Below, one piece after another: positions 28,101-34,100 of a stretch of 64,000 nt of DNA. Position 1 is the first letter of the stretch, and the number at the start of each line of letters is the position of its first letter. A program made the position numbers and the translations under genes. The stretch comes from Branchiostoma floridae (taxonomy: Eukaryota; Chordata; Leptocardii; Amphioxiformes; Branchiostomatidae), in the NCBI RefSeq assembly GCF_000003815.2, contig NC_049993.1, forward strand, positions 8,123,762 through 8,187,761, in the 5' to 3' direction. The notes beneath the pieces were generated by a model. The model was not told where the DNA came from. It saw only the letters and a list, made by a program, of their open reading frames with translations, and did not search any database.

Positions 28101-31100
28101 TCACGACTATCCTCCTTTTGTGTTAGATTTTGTATTACCTAAAATACCTGTTAGAAGCAGATGAAATCTAGACAAGAGAATTGGAGTTATTAGGAATGTC
28201 ATGATACCTGGCATGTATCTATAGATCTACTGAATGTTTAGTTAAATACAGCACTCTTTTGATGGATTATACCTAACGTTACATGTAGAACATACAAAAG
28301 ACCGAAGGTAGAACATACACACTAAGGCCGGTTCATAGGAGGAAATTTGCGCGACATATGATGATTCCCCTAGGACAGTAGCCTAGGATAGTTTTCGGTT
28401 CACACAAACCCACTGCGACTCTCATGGCGCACCACAACACATCACACTGCAGCGCACAGCCGTGAACCCTGGTGACCAGACGAGTGTGGCGTGGGTTGAA
28501 TCAAGGGTGGGAAAGGTCTCAGGCATTCGCATATGACCCCTGACCTACTGCAAAGCGAAAGTGGGCTGCCTACGACATCGGCACATTCAGTGATGCCGCA
28601 AACTGCCCAATGTCTGTCGTACGCCCAACCCTGGAGGCAACACGTGACACGTAATGCCGCTGTGCGTCACGGGGGCTGTTTCTACGGACAAGCGTCACGC
28701 GCTGCTCATCAATCGCCATAGGACAGATTGCAGTTTCCACACGATGTGTGGAGTTTCCACACGATGTGTGGGGTTTCCACACGATGTGTGCAGGTTTCCA
28801 CACATCGTGTGATAGAATTTCTGTTTTTAACTGAGAACATGTTTGTGTTGTTTGTAAAATCTTGTCCTTGAAAACATTACATTAGTTTTTTCTCTTAAGT
28901 TACCTTCACCCATGTTTTCAGGGCTGTATGTCTGTTTGCCTCTTTGTGTGTTTGAGGACAGTGTAACTGGAGAAGCTGTGGATGGATTTTTATGATACTT
29001 GGACTGATTGTAGGTTTTTAAAGCTCTCCAGCATCTTTCTAAGGTACTACAACAGAACTCCTGTTTTTGATACCACATGTTCTGGAAATGCTATGGTCAT
29101 GATAAATGGGAGGTGGCTATTATTTATGATACGTTTTGTCTTTCCAATATTTCAGGTACTGGAGGCCTGGAGCCCGTGATCGACCCTTTAACGACATGGC
29201 GTACATCCGGGGAGGGTTCGTGTACCTGCAGGATATGATCGACCAGGGCATCATTCGTGCTCTGACGGGAAAGGACGAGGAACCAATCACCGGAGTTTAT
29301 CTTCAGCAGTTCCCATACCCGTGTTACACTAAAGACTCGTAAGTATGACTTTGAATACCCAGTTAAGTATTGGCCTGGTGTCTATCCTATTCTAGCTCCA
29401 TTTGCTCCTTTGATCATTGCCCTGTAGAAAGTTCTGGCACCTGTTGGTAAAGAAATGATTTGCAGTAACTTTTGAAATCAATTTTGCCCTGAAGTAATGG
29501 TTGGAGCAAACCTTAGCTGAAACAGGATGGATTCCGGGATAGTCATTATTGCTTTATTTTAAGGAGTCATGCATGGAATTAGAAATTAAAGTTAGCAATC
29601 ATAACAGTTGTAGGATCAGCTATTGACAGTTATTTTTAATCTTTGCTTTATCCTTTTTAACCATTTAGAATTGCAAGCAATTTGACAAAAAAGTTTCTGG
29701 TACTGCATGGTGTATGGAAGTACTGTTCATTGATATTTTAAACATTTTTCACATCCTTTTTTTTAATTATACTGCCATCATGGTATATGATTGAACTTTT
29801 AGCCATCATGGTATAGGATTTTGTATATGACTTTATATACAATAGGTCCTACCCTTGCCAAAATATATTTACTAATATTTTCTTTAATTCAATTTTTTTG
29901 TTTACTTTGTATGCTTTGACTTTTTTATATTTTGTACAATAATAAATGTTTTGTATTTTACATGTCAGATGCTTTAAGTTTAGATTTTGCAGGATGATGA
30001 TCACATCTAGGAATGTGGTTATCCATTGTAGTTGACATGGATATGTTTTGCTTGTTAATAATAATATGTTATTTTTCACCATATGCTGTGGTATGCAAGT
30101 AAACAGGGTGTAATGCTTTGATCATTGTACAGTTGTAGACTTGAGTTTTGCGATTGTTCGATAGGTTTGTGTGGGCGTTATCCTGCTCCATCCCCATGTT
30201 TACATCTTTGTACAGTTGTAGACTTGAATTTTACGGTTGGTCGCTAGGTTTGTGTGGGCGCTATCCCGCTCCATCCCCATGTTCATGACCCTGAGTTGGA
30301 TCTACCCGGTGGCCATGATCATCAAGAGCATCGTCTACGAGAAGGAGGAGCGTCTCAAGGAAGTGATGAAGATGATGGGCCTGACTAACGGGGTCCACTG
30401 GACCGCCTGGTTTTTCACCAGTATCATCGTCATGTTTCTCACCATCTGTCTGCTGACTGCAACGCTGAAGGTAGCGTCTACAGTCCGGGGTGATAATTAA
30501 TCTCCAAGCAGATCCTATGGTAGCATAAGATAGTATCAAAAGCTGCCAGAGGAGTGAAGCCGGCCTAGGAGTGTGTTTGGCTCCCAGTGGCTGATGACTC
30601 CCTTTAGCCAGCTATCCTCCTTGACTAGTTTTGCTACTATCTCATGCCACTGGTAAATCTGCCTGGAGATTAGGTGATAATAACAAAAAAAGGACATCCA
30701 ACGTGACCATTAGTATTTGCTGCTAATGCAGTTTTCTCAATGATTCATAGATGGCACTCTTAAGTGTTGTGTATGGGTGGAATCAGATATTCAGAAACAA
30801 TTTCTTAACAGTGAGGAATTCTTGTTGTCAGTTGAAGTCAGAAAAAGGTCATGTTAGGTGTCCTTCTTACCGCCACATTCTTTGCCAGGTGTTGGGGCAG
30901 CATTTCTAACAGGTGTGGTGTTAGCAGCTCACTTTTTCTTGTTATCCTTTGTTTCTTACACTCTTCTTTCCAGTTTAGATGTTGCAGTCTAAACCATGTT
31001 TTAATATTTTTATCTTGTTTCGGTTTTATTTTCATTATAACATGTTTTTTTCATCATTTTTATTTTGTTTTTGTTTGCTTGACAAAGTTTTTTTCCTACT

Positions 31101-34100
31101 CACCTACCATTAGTTGGATGTCTCTGCCACCTTGTTTGCACTCACAATAAAACATGAATTAAATTCACTTGAAACAACTAACCAGGACATTTCAAACCCT
31201 ATAGGTCTTCATCTGATTCAACAAAACCTCACTGAAACCTTTAATACGTTAACAGCAACGTTTCCCTCAAACAGAGAGTTGGAAATGAAGCAGATTTCGG
31301 GTCCTTACAAAATGGTGCCGTCACATCATTAAATTTCACTGCAAAGTAAAAAATCCTGATCAAATTGAATTGAAATTTACCAAACCGTAAACATTCCATG
31401 TAGGTTTCTGAGCGCAACTGCCATGGTACTTCCCCTGGCCATGTGCCTGGCATGGGTGTACTCCGTTGCCATGGTGATCAAAAGAATCGTTTACGAGAAG
31501 GAACTGCGCCTCAAAGAGGTGATGAGGATCATGGGATTGGGCGATGGCGTCCACTGGGTGGCCTGGTTCATCAACAGTATGGTCGTCATTTTCACCTCGG
31601 CCATTCTCCTGGCGTTATTGCTGAAGGTATTACAAACAGTCCACAGGAGAACAGCTGACACCAATCATTAGATCAAAAGAAAGAAATCAATGATATGTAA
31701 ACAAGATTGGGTGCTGCTTTTTGTAAATCATTGCTGAATCAACAGAAAGTGCCACTGGTATACTCGGTACAATCCCAAATCACATTGAAATCAAACAGTT
31801 TTGAATACTATTTCATATAATTATCAACAATCTCAAATAATTGTTGCTACATAGCTGATAAATCCATTGAAAACGGTGGCCACCAATTGTCAATTTGTTA
31901 ACATAAAATCAACATTAATCAATGCTTGTTTTTTTTTTCAAATCATTGAATGAAAAGAATTGCCACTAAATCTGCTGCCTAGTGAATTGGTCTCTTTGTT
32001 ATAATGCTGAGACATGCAATCATCAATCTGAAATTGCTGAAACTTCAATCATTTTTGCCTGAAGGATTGTTATACTGTATTCAACCCAGTCACTAACATT
32101 GGTCTTGTTACTGTGTAATAATTTGAAATAACCACAATTACTCACACTCGCTACTAATTATGACTAACACCGATTCAAGTCTGTTATAACCAGCCAGCAT
32201 CCTTCATATTTCTTCATTTTTACACTTCTATCCTTTTTCTTTATTTTTACTTCCATCAATTTTGTAGATACTTTGTAATACACAAGGAATCACGGAGGGT
32301 GTATGGGGGTGTAATTGTGGGAAAAACAGTCTTCAGGATGCACAGAAATTGAAAATATCTATTCGTATTTGACAGATTTTCATGGTATGAAATGAGTCCG
32401 ATTATGAATATCCAAATAATTGAATTTCTGTATCATTTAAAAATGTAAATTTAAAAGTGGATAATATAAAATATTGGATTGCAATCATTGTAACTTAAAG
32501 GAGACATAGTGTACATGTATGTTTGACAATCACCAGTTTTTGTGGTATATTGCAGTATGGAGCAGTGATGCAGAACAGCAATCCTCTGGTCCTCATCGTG
32601 TTCCTGCTCTGTTTCGCCATCGCGACCATCATGCAATGCTTCCTGATCTCCACGTTCTTCTCGCGAGCGAACCTGGCGGCGGCGTGCGGCGGGATCATCT
32701 ACTTCGTTCTGTACCTGCCGTATACGCTCATTATCGTGTGGGAGGACAGGATGACCAACGGATCCAAGGGCTTTGCTGTAAGACACTGTCTATCAGATAT
32801 TCTTAGTAAAATTGCATACTTAAGTTCAAAACAACTTAGTCTACATTGTATTACTCTTCAGCGCTCTACAAAATGTTTAAAATGCCATTAATTTAGGTTC
32901 TTAGTTTGTGGTAGTACTTTAATGGAAAATGGAAAGATCCCATCTTTTGCCAGCCTTTCTTGTTTTGGATTCATGATGTTTTGTAAATTCTTTTGATCAA
33001 TTTATTAAGTGAATATCCAAAGGCTTTGCTGTAAGAAAGGATAATCAAATTAGGCCACGTCAATTACTAAATTGTTTTCGGACATTTCTTAGCAAAGACA
33101 GCCAACAAGATGGAAGGGACTACTAGGACTGTAATGTATCTCTAAAACTTAATGTACCAAGGTTCAGACTTCCCCTCAGACTGTTTTCTTGGTGTTTTTT
33201 TTTAGTTTGATAATCAACAAATTGAATTGCTGTTGGTTGCAGCATTCTAGTGAATGTTTCATAATAGCTGTCAACCATTGATTTCAGATTCATTATGTTG
33301 CATTTCTATACTTAATTTCTTTATGTATTTTATACTCAATATCTTTTAATATATTGTAGTCTTGGAAAACATAACCTGATGTATTCACCATATCTCTTGA
33401 ATCAACAATTCTTGCCTTTGTGCCCCCTCAGAGCCTGCTGTCGTCGGTGGCGTTCGGTTTCGGCTGTACGTACATCGCGCGGTTTGAGGAGCAGGGGGTG
33501 GGGATCCAGTGGGACAACATCTGGACCAACCCCTCCCCCCAGGACTCCTTCACCTTCGGCTTCTCCCTCCTCATGATGCTGTTCGATGCCTTCCTGTACG
33601 GCCTCATGACCTGGTACATCGAGGCTGTCTTCCCAGGTACAAATACAAACTTTTTTAGTTTTCATTCTAAGATGTAAAGCTATAACGCTAGTTCACCATT
33701 ATCCGTGGGGTAACCTATATCCGTTGTTTTCAAGAGCTGGGTATTTAGGGATATTATTCCGATGAAATGTGAGTTCAAACTGCTATATATTGAAAATGTT
33801 ATGATTTGAAACCATCGTCCGTCGACTTGATATCCCTAAAAGCGTTGTTTTGAAAAACAACGGATGTAGGTTACCCCACGGATAAAGGTGAAGTAACGTT
33901 ACATTCACGTACTCAGTGAAATAAAATGAACATCATGAAATGAATTCATTCATTTGTACATACTTTGCTCAAACTAGTATTCTGCTGAGAACTCCTCCAA
34001 AGTCCTCTGCCACAATTTTGTACCATTTAAGGTGTAAGATGCCAATACTGTTTTTTTAACTACGTCACAGTTACTACATGTATGATCTTATTGTAAACTT

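Follow-up and report, generated by a model that had tools for sequence, protein, structure and literature searches.

Adjacent homologous exons point to mutually exclusive splicing in an ABCA1-like transporter gene of the amphioxus Branchiostoma floridae

Can a single transporter gene exchange part of its membrane domain, and with it part of its lipid site, by choosing between two neighboring exons? This question is raised by a 64,000-nucleotide stretch of the Branchiostoma floridae genome (RefSeq assembly GCF_000003815.2, contig NC_049993.1, positions 8,123,762 to 8,187,761 of the forward strand; hereafter the window, whose numbering is used throughout), which carries a gene for an ATP-binding cassette (ABC) transporter of the ABCA1/ABCA4 type. 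An initial annotation proposed that two exons of this gene, 15A and 15B, each encode the segment running from transmembrane helix 2 (TM2) through a loop to TM3, and that the two are used in a mutually exclusive manner.

Exons 15A and 15B are adjacent homologous exons of equal length and equal phases, as is the case for mutually exclusive tandem-duplicated exons. Each spans 223 nucleotides between AG and GT borders, is entered after the TC of a serine codon and is left in phase 0, and the 933-nucleotide intron between them has proper borders on both sides, all of which agrees with the initial annotation. The peptides also align without gaps as annotated, but the count of 42 identical residues in 74 must be revised to 42 of 75 with the shared serine, or 41 of 74 for codons that lie wholly inside the exon. 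At the DNA level the two exons are 66.4% identical. Aligned to 15A without gaps, 15B scores 221, whereas the background over the six frames of the window has a mean of -80 and a standard deviation of 19, with a next best score of 7.

The predicted consequences of mis-splicing were borne out as well. When both exons are skipped, the join of exon 14 to exon 16 runs into a stop at residue 632, and when both are included the stop lies at residue 851 (model numbering). Because inclusion of both exons or of neither shifts the frame and leads to an early stop, a functional mRNA needs exactly one of the two.

Divergence between the exons is concentrated as first described, with a kept loop between diverged helices: 15A and 15B share 10 of 24 residues in TM2, 18 of 24 in the loop and 13 of 26 in TM3, where the limits of the three parts are our own division. 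AlphaFold2 models of the isolated 74-residue peptides, made with no alignment, give weak agreement with a TM2-IH2-TM3 arrangement, in which IH2 denotes the helix of the loop (mean predicted local distance difference test scores of 75 and 73; helices at residues 2-32, 36-42 and 48-73 in 15B and at 2-42 and 46-73 in 15A). A fold search of the PDB with the 15B model yielded no match at E up to 0.001.

Table 1. Positions of the transporter gene, its alternative exons and nearby elements in the window
Feature	Position	Strand	Remarks
ABCA1/ABCA4-type full transporter gene	10091-54776	+	43-exon splice model; three further stretches of protein P0010 placed by tblastn
Exon 14 (end of extracellular domain 1, ECD1)	29156-29338	+	Exits after two bases of Ser codon; donor GTAAGT
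83-nucleotide tandem duplication, 87% identical, copying 15A acceptor and exon start	30113-30278	+	Decoy start at 30165
Exon 15A, 223 nucleotides, TM2-IH2-TM3	30248-30470	+	Arg at ABCA4 R653 site, codon 30267-30269 CGC
Palindromic element resembling a miniature inverted-repeat transposable element (MITE), in inter-exon intron	30498-30672		Begins 28 nucleotides past exon 15A
Exon 15B, 223 nucleotides, TM2-IH2-TM3	31404-31626	+	Met at ABCA4 R653 site, codon 31423-31425 ATG; weak donor GTATTA, weak acceptor
Exon 16 (TM4 onward)	32556-32777	+	Phase-0 entry from 15A or 15B alike

The identity of the gene is indicated by the protein P0010 (Branchiostoma floridae x another Branchiostoma), which matches the gene model at 2203 of 2219 aligned residues (99.3%) and is named by NCBI 'phospholipid-transporting ATPase ABCA1-like isoform X1'. 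Three stretches of P0010, of 33, 35 and 59 amino acids, are absent from the splice model, some of whose exon borders may be wrong. One of the three precedes exon 15, and the original numbering of the exons as 14, 15 and 16 is right given that one upstream exon is missing from the model. Pfam domains on P0010 comprise two copies each of ABC_tran and ABC2_membrane_3 and one of R1_ABCA1, and the protein covers positions 1-2265 of the 2272 of TIGR01257, which makes it ABCA1/4/7-type over its whole length. Its score of 2305 bits lies below the curated cut-off of 4013, so that the TIGR01257 standard for an ABCA4 orthologue is not reached. For exons 15A-17, relatives with solved structures rank in the order ABCA1, ABCA4, ABCA7 and ABCA3; this ranking and the NCBI name both agree with the label 'ABCA1-like' given at the outset. 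A tblastn search with P0010 (E up to 0.05) revealed exon 15 as the sole whole exon present in duplicate in the gene, apart from the resemblance to be expected between the two ATPase halves, together with partial duplications of exon starts at two places, 30113-30278 and 35986-36219.

Whether the second exon has been kept as protein was judged against 22 homologous segments. A chain of human ABCA1 supplies one, and the other 21 come from 20 of 28 proteins, of which the lamprey protein P0012 gives two. Left out were the Branchiostoma belcheri prediction P0011, which was set aside, and P0008, P0010, P0020, P0024, P0025, P0027 and P0028, which are near-duplicates, the window's own gene or a fragment. 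The last residues of the Acropora segment belong to the next exon. A smaller count used 18 segments without Acropora, Diadema, Petromyzon and lamprey copy 1, and a tree was likewise made without Acropora and Diadema, but the conservation figures given here are for all 22. Because word matches to 15A or 15B served to collect the homologues, the comparison is biased toward columns that amphioxus keeps.

Among the columns that are at least 80% conserved in these segments, 15B keeps 21 of 21 and 15A keeps 20 of 21, and both exons keep all 11 invariant columns. The reading frame of 15B is free of stops. When 15A was evolved neutrally to the same DNA distance in two simulation modes (2000 runs each), none of the 4000 runs reached 41 identical residues; the means were 28.6 and 29.2, and 14% and 9% of the runs, respectively, remained stop-free. 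Between the two exons dN is 0.37 and dS is 0.84, and GC content is 76% at third codon positions versus 38% in the intron between them. Identical codons are used at 20 of the 34 shared degenerate residues, where saturation would give 16.2 +/- 2.8. Shared synonymous codons are thus near saturation, and the pair therefore looks old. The 300-base flanks before and after 15A are no more like those of 15B than shuffled sequences are. Frame, conserved columns, dN/dS, codon saturation and unlike flanks together argue for an old duplication whose second copy was kept as protein, and 15B looks to be under coding constraint as judged from one genome and distant homologues. One T-rich local match, between positions 29950-30082 and 30948-31057, was found when the whole of intron 14 was compared with the inter-exon intron. 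This match could be what is left of the duplication, but equal scores arose in 2 of 200 plain shuffles and in 10 of 300 shuffles that kept dinucleotides, and since it comes from one of four comparisons we do not build upon it.

The exchange of exons would affect a residue of known importance in a relative. Residue 8 of the exon peptide aligns with Arg653 of ABCA4, position 638 of ABCA1 and position 548 of ABCA7, according to match coordinates; in the ABCA4 chain 7lkp (2273 residues), residues 646-717 match query residues 1-72, and position 653 was placed again in a separate comparison. This residue is arginine in 15A and methionine in 15B. The accessible portions of three ABCA4 reports (PMC8501128, PMC8219669, PMC7796138) describe R653 in TM2 and R587 in ECD1 as binding the phosphate of the substrate, the former by a salt bridge, and describe the variants R653A, R653C and R653E as having a strong loss of binding with near-normal expression and basal ATPase activity. 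One of these (PMC8501128) also places in the loop of ABCA4 the helix IH2, one of those that connect the membrane and ATPase domains. The equivalent of the R587 site in the amphioxus protein is arginine as well, and it is encoded outside the exon pair. Given this arginine and the choice at residue 8, isoform A would carry the ABCA4-like clamp in full and isoform B one half. The early suggestion that an isoform switch could alter lipid choice thereby gains a concrete basis, in that 15B lacks the R653-equivalent arginine.

We favor the explanation, with a probability of roughly 0.7, that 15A and 15B form a mutually exclusive pair that arose by an old tandem exon duplication and that swaps TM2-IH2-TM3 along with part of the lipid site. 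Each mature mRNA would contain exactly one of the exons, and mRNAs with both or neither, which are predicted to shift frame and stop early, would presumably be cleared by nonsense-mediated decay. The choice is probably set by trans-acting factors that act on weak splice sites, with 15A as the stronger default exon and 15B as the regulated one, if scores from a generic matrix are a guide. With this matrix the sites of 15A also score rather low (1.58 for the donor, which ranks sixth lowest of 42, and 1.53 for the acceptor, which ranks tenth lowest of 42), and two weak exons would fit a regulated choice by splicing factors. Both isoforms would share ECD1, the nucleotide-binding domains (NBDs), the rest of the protein and the greater part of the coupling loop with its IH2, and would differ in TM2 and TM3. 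Isoform A would have both clamp arginines (the R587 and R653 equivalents). Isoform B would have methionine for the second and a more hydrophobic outer end of TM2, and it might act on a different lipid, or bind outer-leaflet phospholipids more weakly, with its coupling to ATP hydrolysis intact.

Several observations weigh against this explanation. On splice-site scores from our own generic matrix, the 15B donor (-0.24) is lower than all 42 donors of the model. Competing pairings among intron 14, the 15A-15B intron and intron 16 did not stand out in the one sequence used, as 24, 54 and 7 of 60 dinucleotide shuffles, respectively, reached the observed score. Searches recovered no 15B protein or transcript among 9 matches (25 candidates), 18 matches (27 candidates) and 1 match (4 candidates), in a collection clustered at 90% that could hide one. 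The closest to 15B among 27 compared proteins is from Pinctada, at 63% identity, and both P0010 and P0011 carry 15A, with P0011 showing 15A only. At the 70% level, 15B keeps 29 of 34 conserved columns versus 31 of 34 for 15A, and by simple correction a dS of 0.84 is under saturation. A 75-column tree of 23 exon peptides leaves the exons unplaced, since none of eight clade tests was rejected at 0.05 (lowest p 0.069). Finally, residue 8 is arginine in 4, histidine in 5 and neither in 13 of the 22 homologous segments; many ABCA proteins thus have no arginine here, and its loss in 15B need not be dramatic.

Is the arrangement peculiar to amphioxus? The original contrast with vertebrates, in which this was taken to be a single exon, proved too simple. 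An ABCA1-like prediction from the lamprey Lethenteron reissneri, P0012, holds two strong tandem exon-15-like copies at residues 665-738 and 749-822 (independent E-values of 8e-33 and 4e-30), and in a scan with an exon profile it was the only one of 28 proteins to do so. Second matches in other proteins, if any, are weak (best 5e-06) and lie about 900 to 1200 residues downstream, in the second half of the protein. P0012 is identical to the Lampetra planeri protein P0024 at 2257 of 2300 aligned residues, but at the place of exon 15 it has an insert of 85 residues that is absent from P0024 and from the Petromyzon protein P0026. Relative to P0024 it has three other inserts, of 143, 14 and 11 residues. 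The 85-residue insert consists of an 11-residue linker that resembles intron read-through, followed by 74 exon-15-like residues. As in amphioxus, the two tandem 74-residue peptides occupy the same place in the protein and only one carries the arginine. Unlike in amphioxus, the lamprey copies are identical at just 25 of 74 residues, the order of the arginine is reversed (residue 8 is asparagine in copy 1 and arginine in copy 2), and both copies are contained in one gene model, which is flagged 'LOW QUALITY'. We take the model to be two alternative exons fused by the gene predictor. The accessible part of a study of lamprey ABC genes (PMC4458048) reports ABCA1a and ABCA1b and mentions no alternative exon.

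The lamprey parallel permits a bolder and tentative idea, to which we give less than even odds, namely that splicing toggles the arginine that holds the phospholipid phosphate. Arg-plus and Arg-minus pumps made from one gene would then differ in the lipids they select or in the direction of transport, and a matching toggle in lampreys would mark either an ancient chordate device that jawed vertebrates have lost or an invention made more than once in this exon.

The favored explanation takes no side on whether the amphioxus and lamprey duplications are shared or independent, and a pair ancestral to chordates or older competes only with independent duplications. An Arg-plus and an Arg-minus exon would in that case have persisted in amphioxus and lamprey, whereas jawed vertebrates would have lost the pair. 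In favor are the lamprey tandem peptides at the same place, one with arginine, and the equal identity of 41 of 74 residues in the comparisons of 15A with 15B, 15A with human ABCA1 and 15B with human ABCA1. However, the Arg exon comes first in amphioxus and second in lamprey, the tree gives no preference to a pairing across species and is compatible with pairing inside either species (p 0.23 and 0.21), and a dS of 0.84 is not extreme. We regard a shared origin as conceivable, though rather unlikely.

More doubtful still is the view that 15B is a decaying relic of the exon duplication, spliced in rarely if at all, with protein made from 15A only. The weak sites of 15B would suit a relic: besides its donor, its acceptor scores -0.19 with the generic matrix and would be fifth lowest of 43. 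So would the outcome of the protein searches and the presence of 15A in P0010 and P0011. However, the frame of 15B is intact, the residues with the highest conservation are kept, dN is less than dS, base composition is like that of coding sequence and shared codons are near saturation, whereas only 9-14% of equally distant neutral simulations stay stop-free. With regard to the searches, a 15B isoform would change 33 residues in about 2346, and P0010 represents 13 sequences, so an isoform that differs at so few residues could sit behind P0010 in a collection clustered at 90%. A 105-residue query for 15B fragments from RNA sequencing retrieved one 131-residue fragment (4 candidates), which is not 15B. 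P0011, from B. belcheri, is probably a faulty gene model, with a stretch of reverse transcriptase/endonuclease attached to the transporter and a repeated part of NBD1.

It is quite improbable that 15B is real but serves chiefly as a poison exon, such that its inclusion beside 15A, or the skipping of both, cuts output through nonsense-mediated decay, with a decoy acceptor as part of the control. An early stop would follow from either kind of mis-splicing and likewise from the decoy acceptor; use of the decoy acceptor just upstream of 15A would create a 306-nucleotide exon and stop the model at residue 669, and with the generic matrix it outscores the true 15A acceptor, 2.79 versus 1.53. However, a pure poison exon does not need the transporter sequence that is preserved in 15B, and the decoy-start sequence is absent from P0010. 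An assembly artefact that set two alleles or the exon of a paralogue side by side is very improbable: the two local tandem duplications at exon starts do indicate that the region holds duplicated sequence, but the locus has no gap (the sole runs of N are 26756-27038 and 46827-46926), a DNA divergence of 34% greatly exceeds that of alleles, and the 300-base exon flanks are unlike.

If a mutually exclusive choice is made, some simple means of enforcing it do not apply. The 933-nucleotide intron is too long for steric exclusion, and a mixture of U2 and U12 sites was ruled out because the donors GTAGCG (15A) and GTATTA (15B) are unlike the U12 consensus. Folding to gauge donor accessibility added little: the 15B donor is the most open of 43 donors and that of 15A is middling. 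A regulatory hairpin in the inter-exon intron was considered and dropped. A 240-nucleotide stretch there (30461-30700) folds at -84.9 kcal/mol (z -4.5), but its inverted-repeat ends recur as pairs elsewhere in the window, at 8637-8815 and 21841-22052, and the inverted repeat is therefore most likely a transposon copy. The ends of these MITE-like elements, including the pair at 30498-30672, are close to TAATCTCCAGGCAGAT, for which 8 matches with up to 3 mismatches were found versus 0.63 expected.

Other features of the window deserve mention. That two acceptor duplications fall within one gene is odd. The second of these, at 35986-36219, consists of three in-frame tandem copies of a 78-nucleotide unit that spans an acceptor and the first part of an NBD1 exon; copies 1 and 2 are identical and copy 3 is 83% identical, and P0010 does not have the extra 52 residues expected from the first acceptor. 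A dispersed repeat of about 1 kilobase lies in two introns of the gene, at 16230-17307 and 47631-48712, is 87-98% identical by pieces and has an internal unit of nearly 300 nucleotides. On the minus strand, 4902-5057 has the size of an exon and matches the beginning of the Pinctada prediction P0002 (46% over 59 residues, E 1e-9), in which PF04117, the Mpv17/PMP22 family, is fused to an ABCA1-like part. In amphioxus this match is found upstream of the transporter in divergent orientation, so the two genes may have been neighbors for a long time.

How does the pair compare with known systems? Tandem-duplicated homologous exons also occur in ABC transporters of the ABCC subfamily, where the accessible part of one survey (PMC9741552) lists human ABCC9, Drosophila mrp and Caenorhabditis elegans mrp-1 as mutually unrelated cases, with several origins across animals. 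Splice events are documented there, whereas the amphioxus pair belongs to the ABCA subfamily, affects the TM2-IH2-TM3 exon and is known from sequence. The term 'ABCA' is absent from the main text of that survey, and no report of mutually exclusive exons in an ABCA gene was found in the literature, as judged by titles and the starts of abstracts among the matches listed, with most subscription journals and bioRxiv preprints outside the coverage. ABCA4, in which Arg653 and Arg587 of ECD1 form a clamp for N-retinylidene-phosphatidylethanolamine, aligns without gaps with the exon and shares both arginine positions with the 15A form. In contrast with amphioxus, where 15B has no TM2 arginine, the accessible parts of the ABCA4 reports mention no alternative exon. 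Docker-selector splicing, as presented in the accessible part of a report on Dscam, 14-3-3zeta and MRP1 (PMC6071210), lets one exon at a time be used from duplicates of similar length, which is what we propose for amphioxus, but in amphioxus no intron pairing rose above shuffles in the single sequence used.

If the favored explanation is true, mutually exclusive exons would extend from ABCC to ABCA transporters, and together with the lamprey prediction they would point to a transporter exon that was duplicated either more than once or very long ago. According to the accessible part of a 2026 review (PMC13161189), both the lipid choice of ABCA proteins and whether they transport in one direction or two are unclear. 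Two isoforms that are alike save for TM2-IH2-TM3, and that differ at the residue that binds the lipid phosphate in ABCA4, would offer a ready-made natural experiment on lipid choice and direction in the ABCA family.

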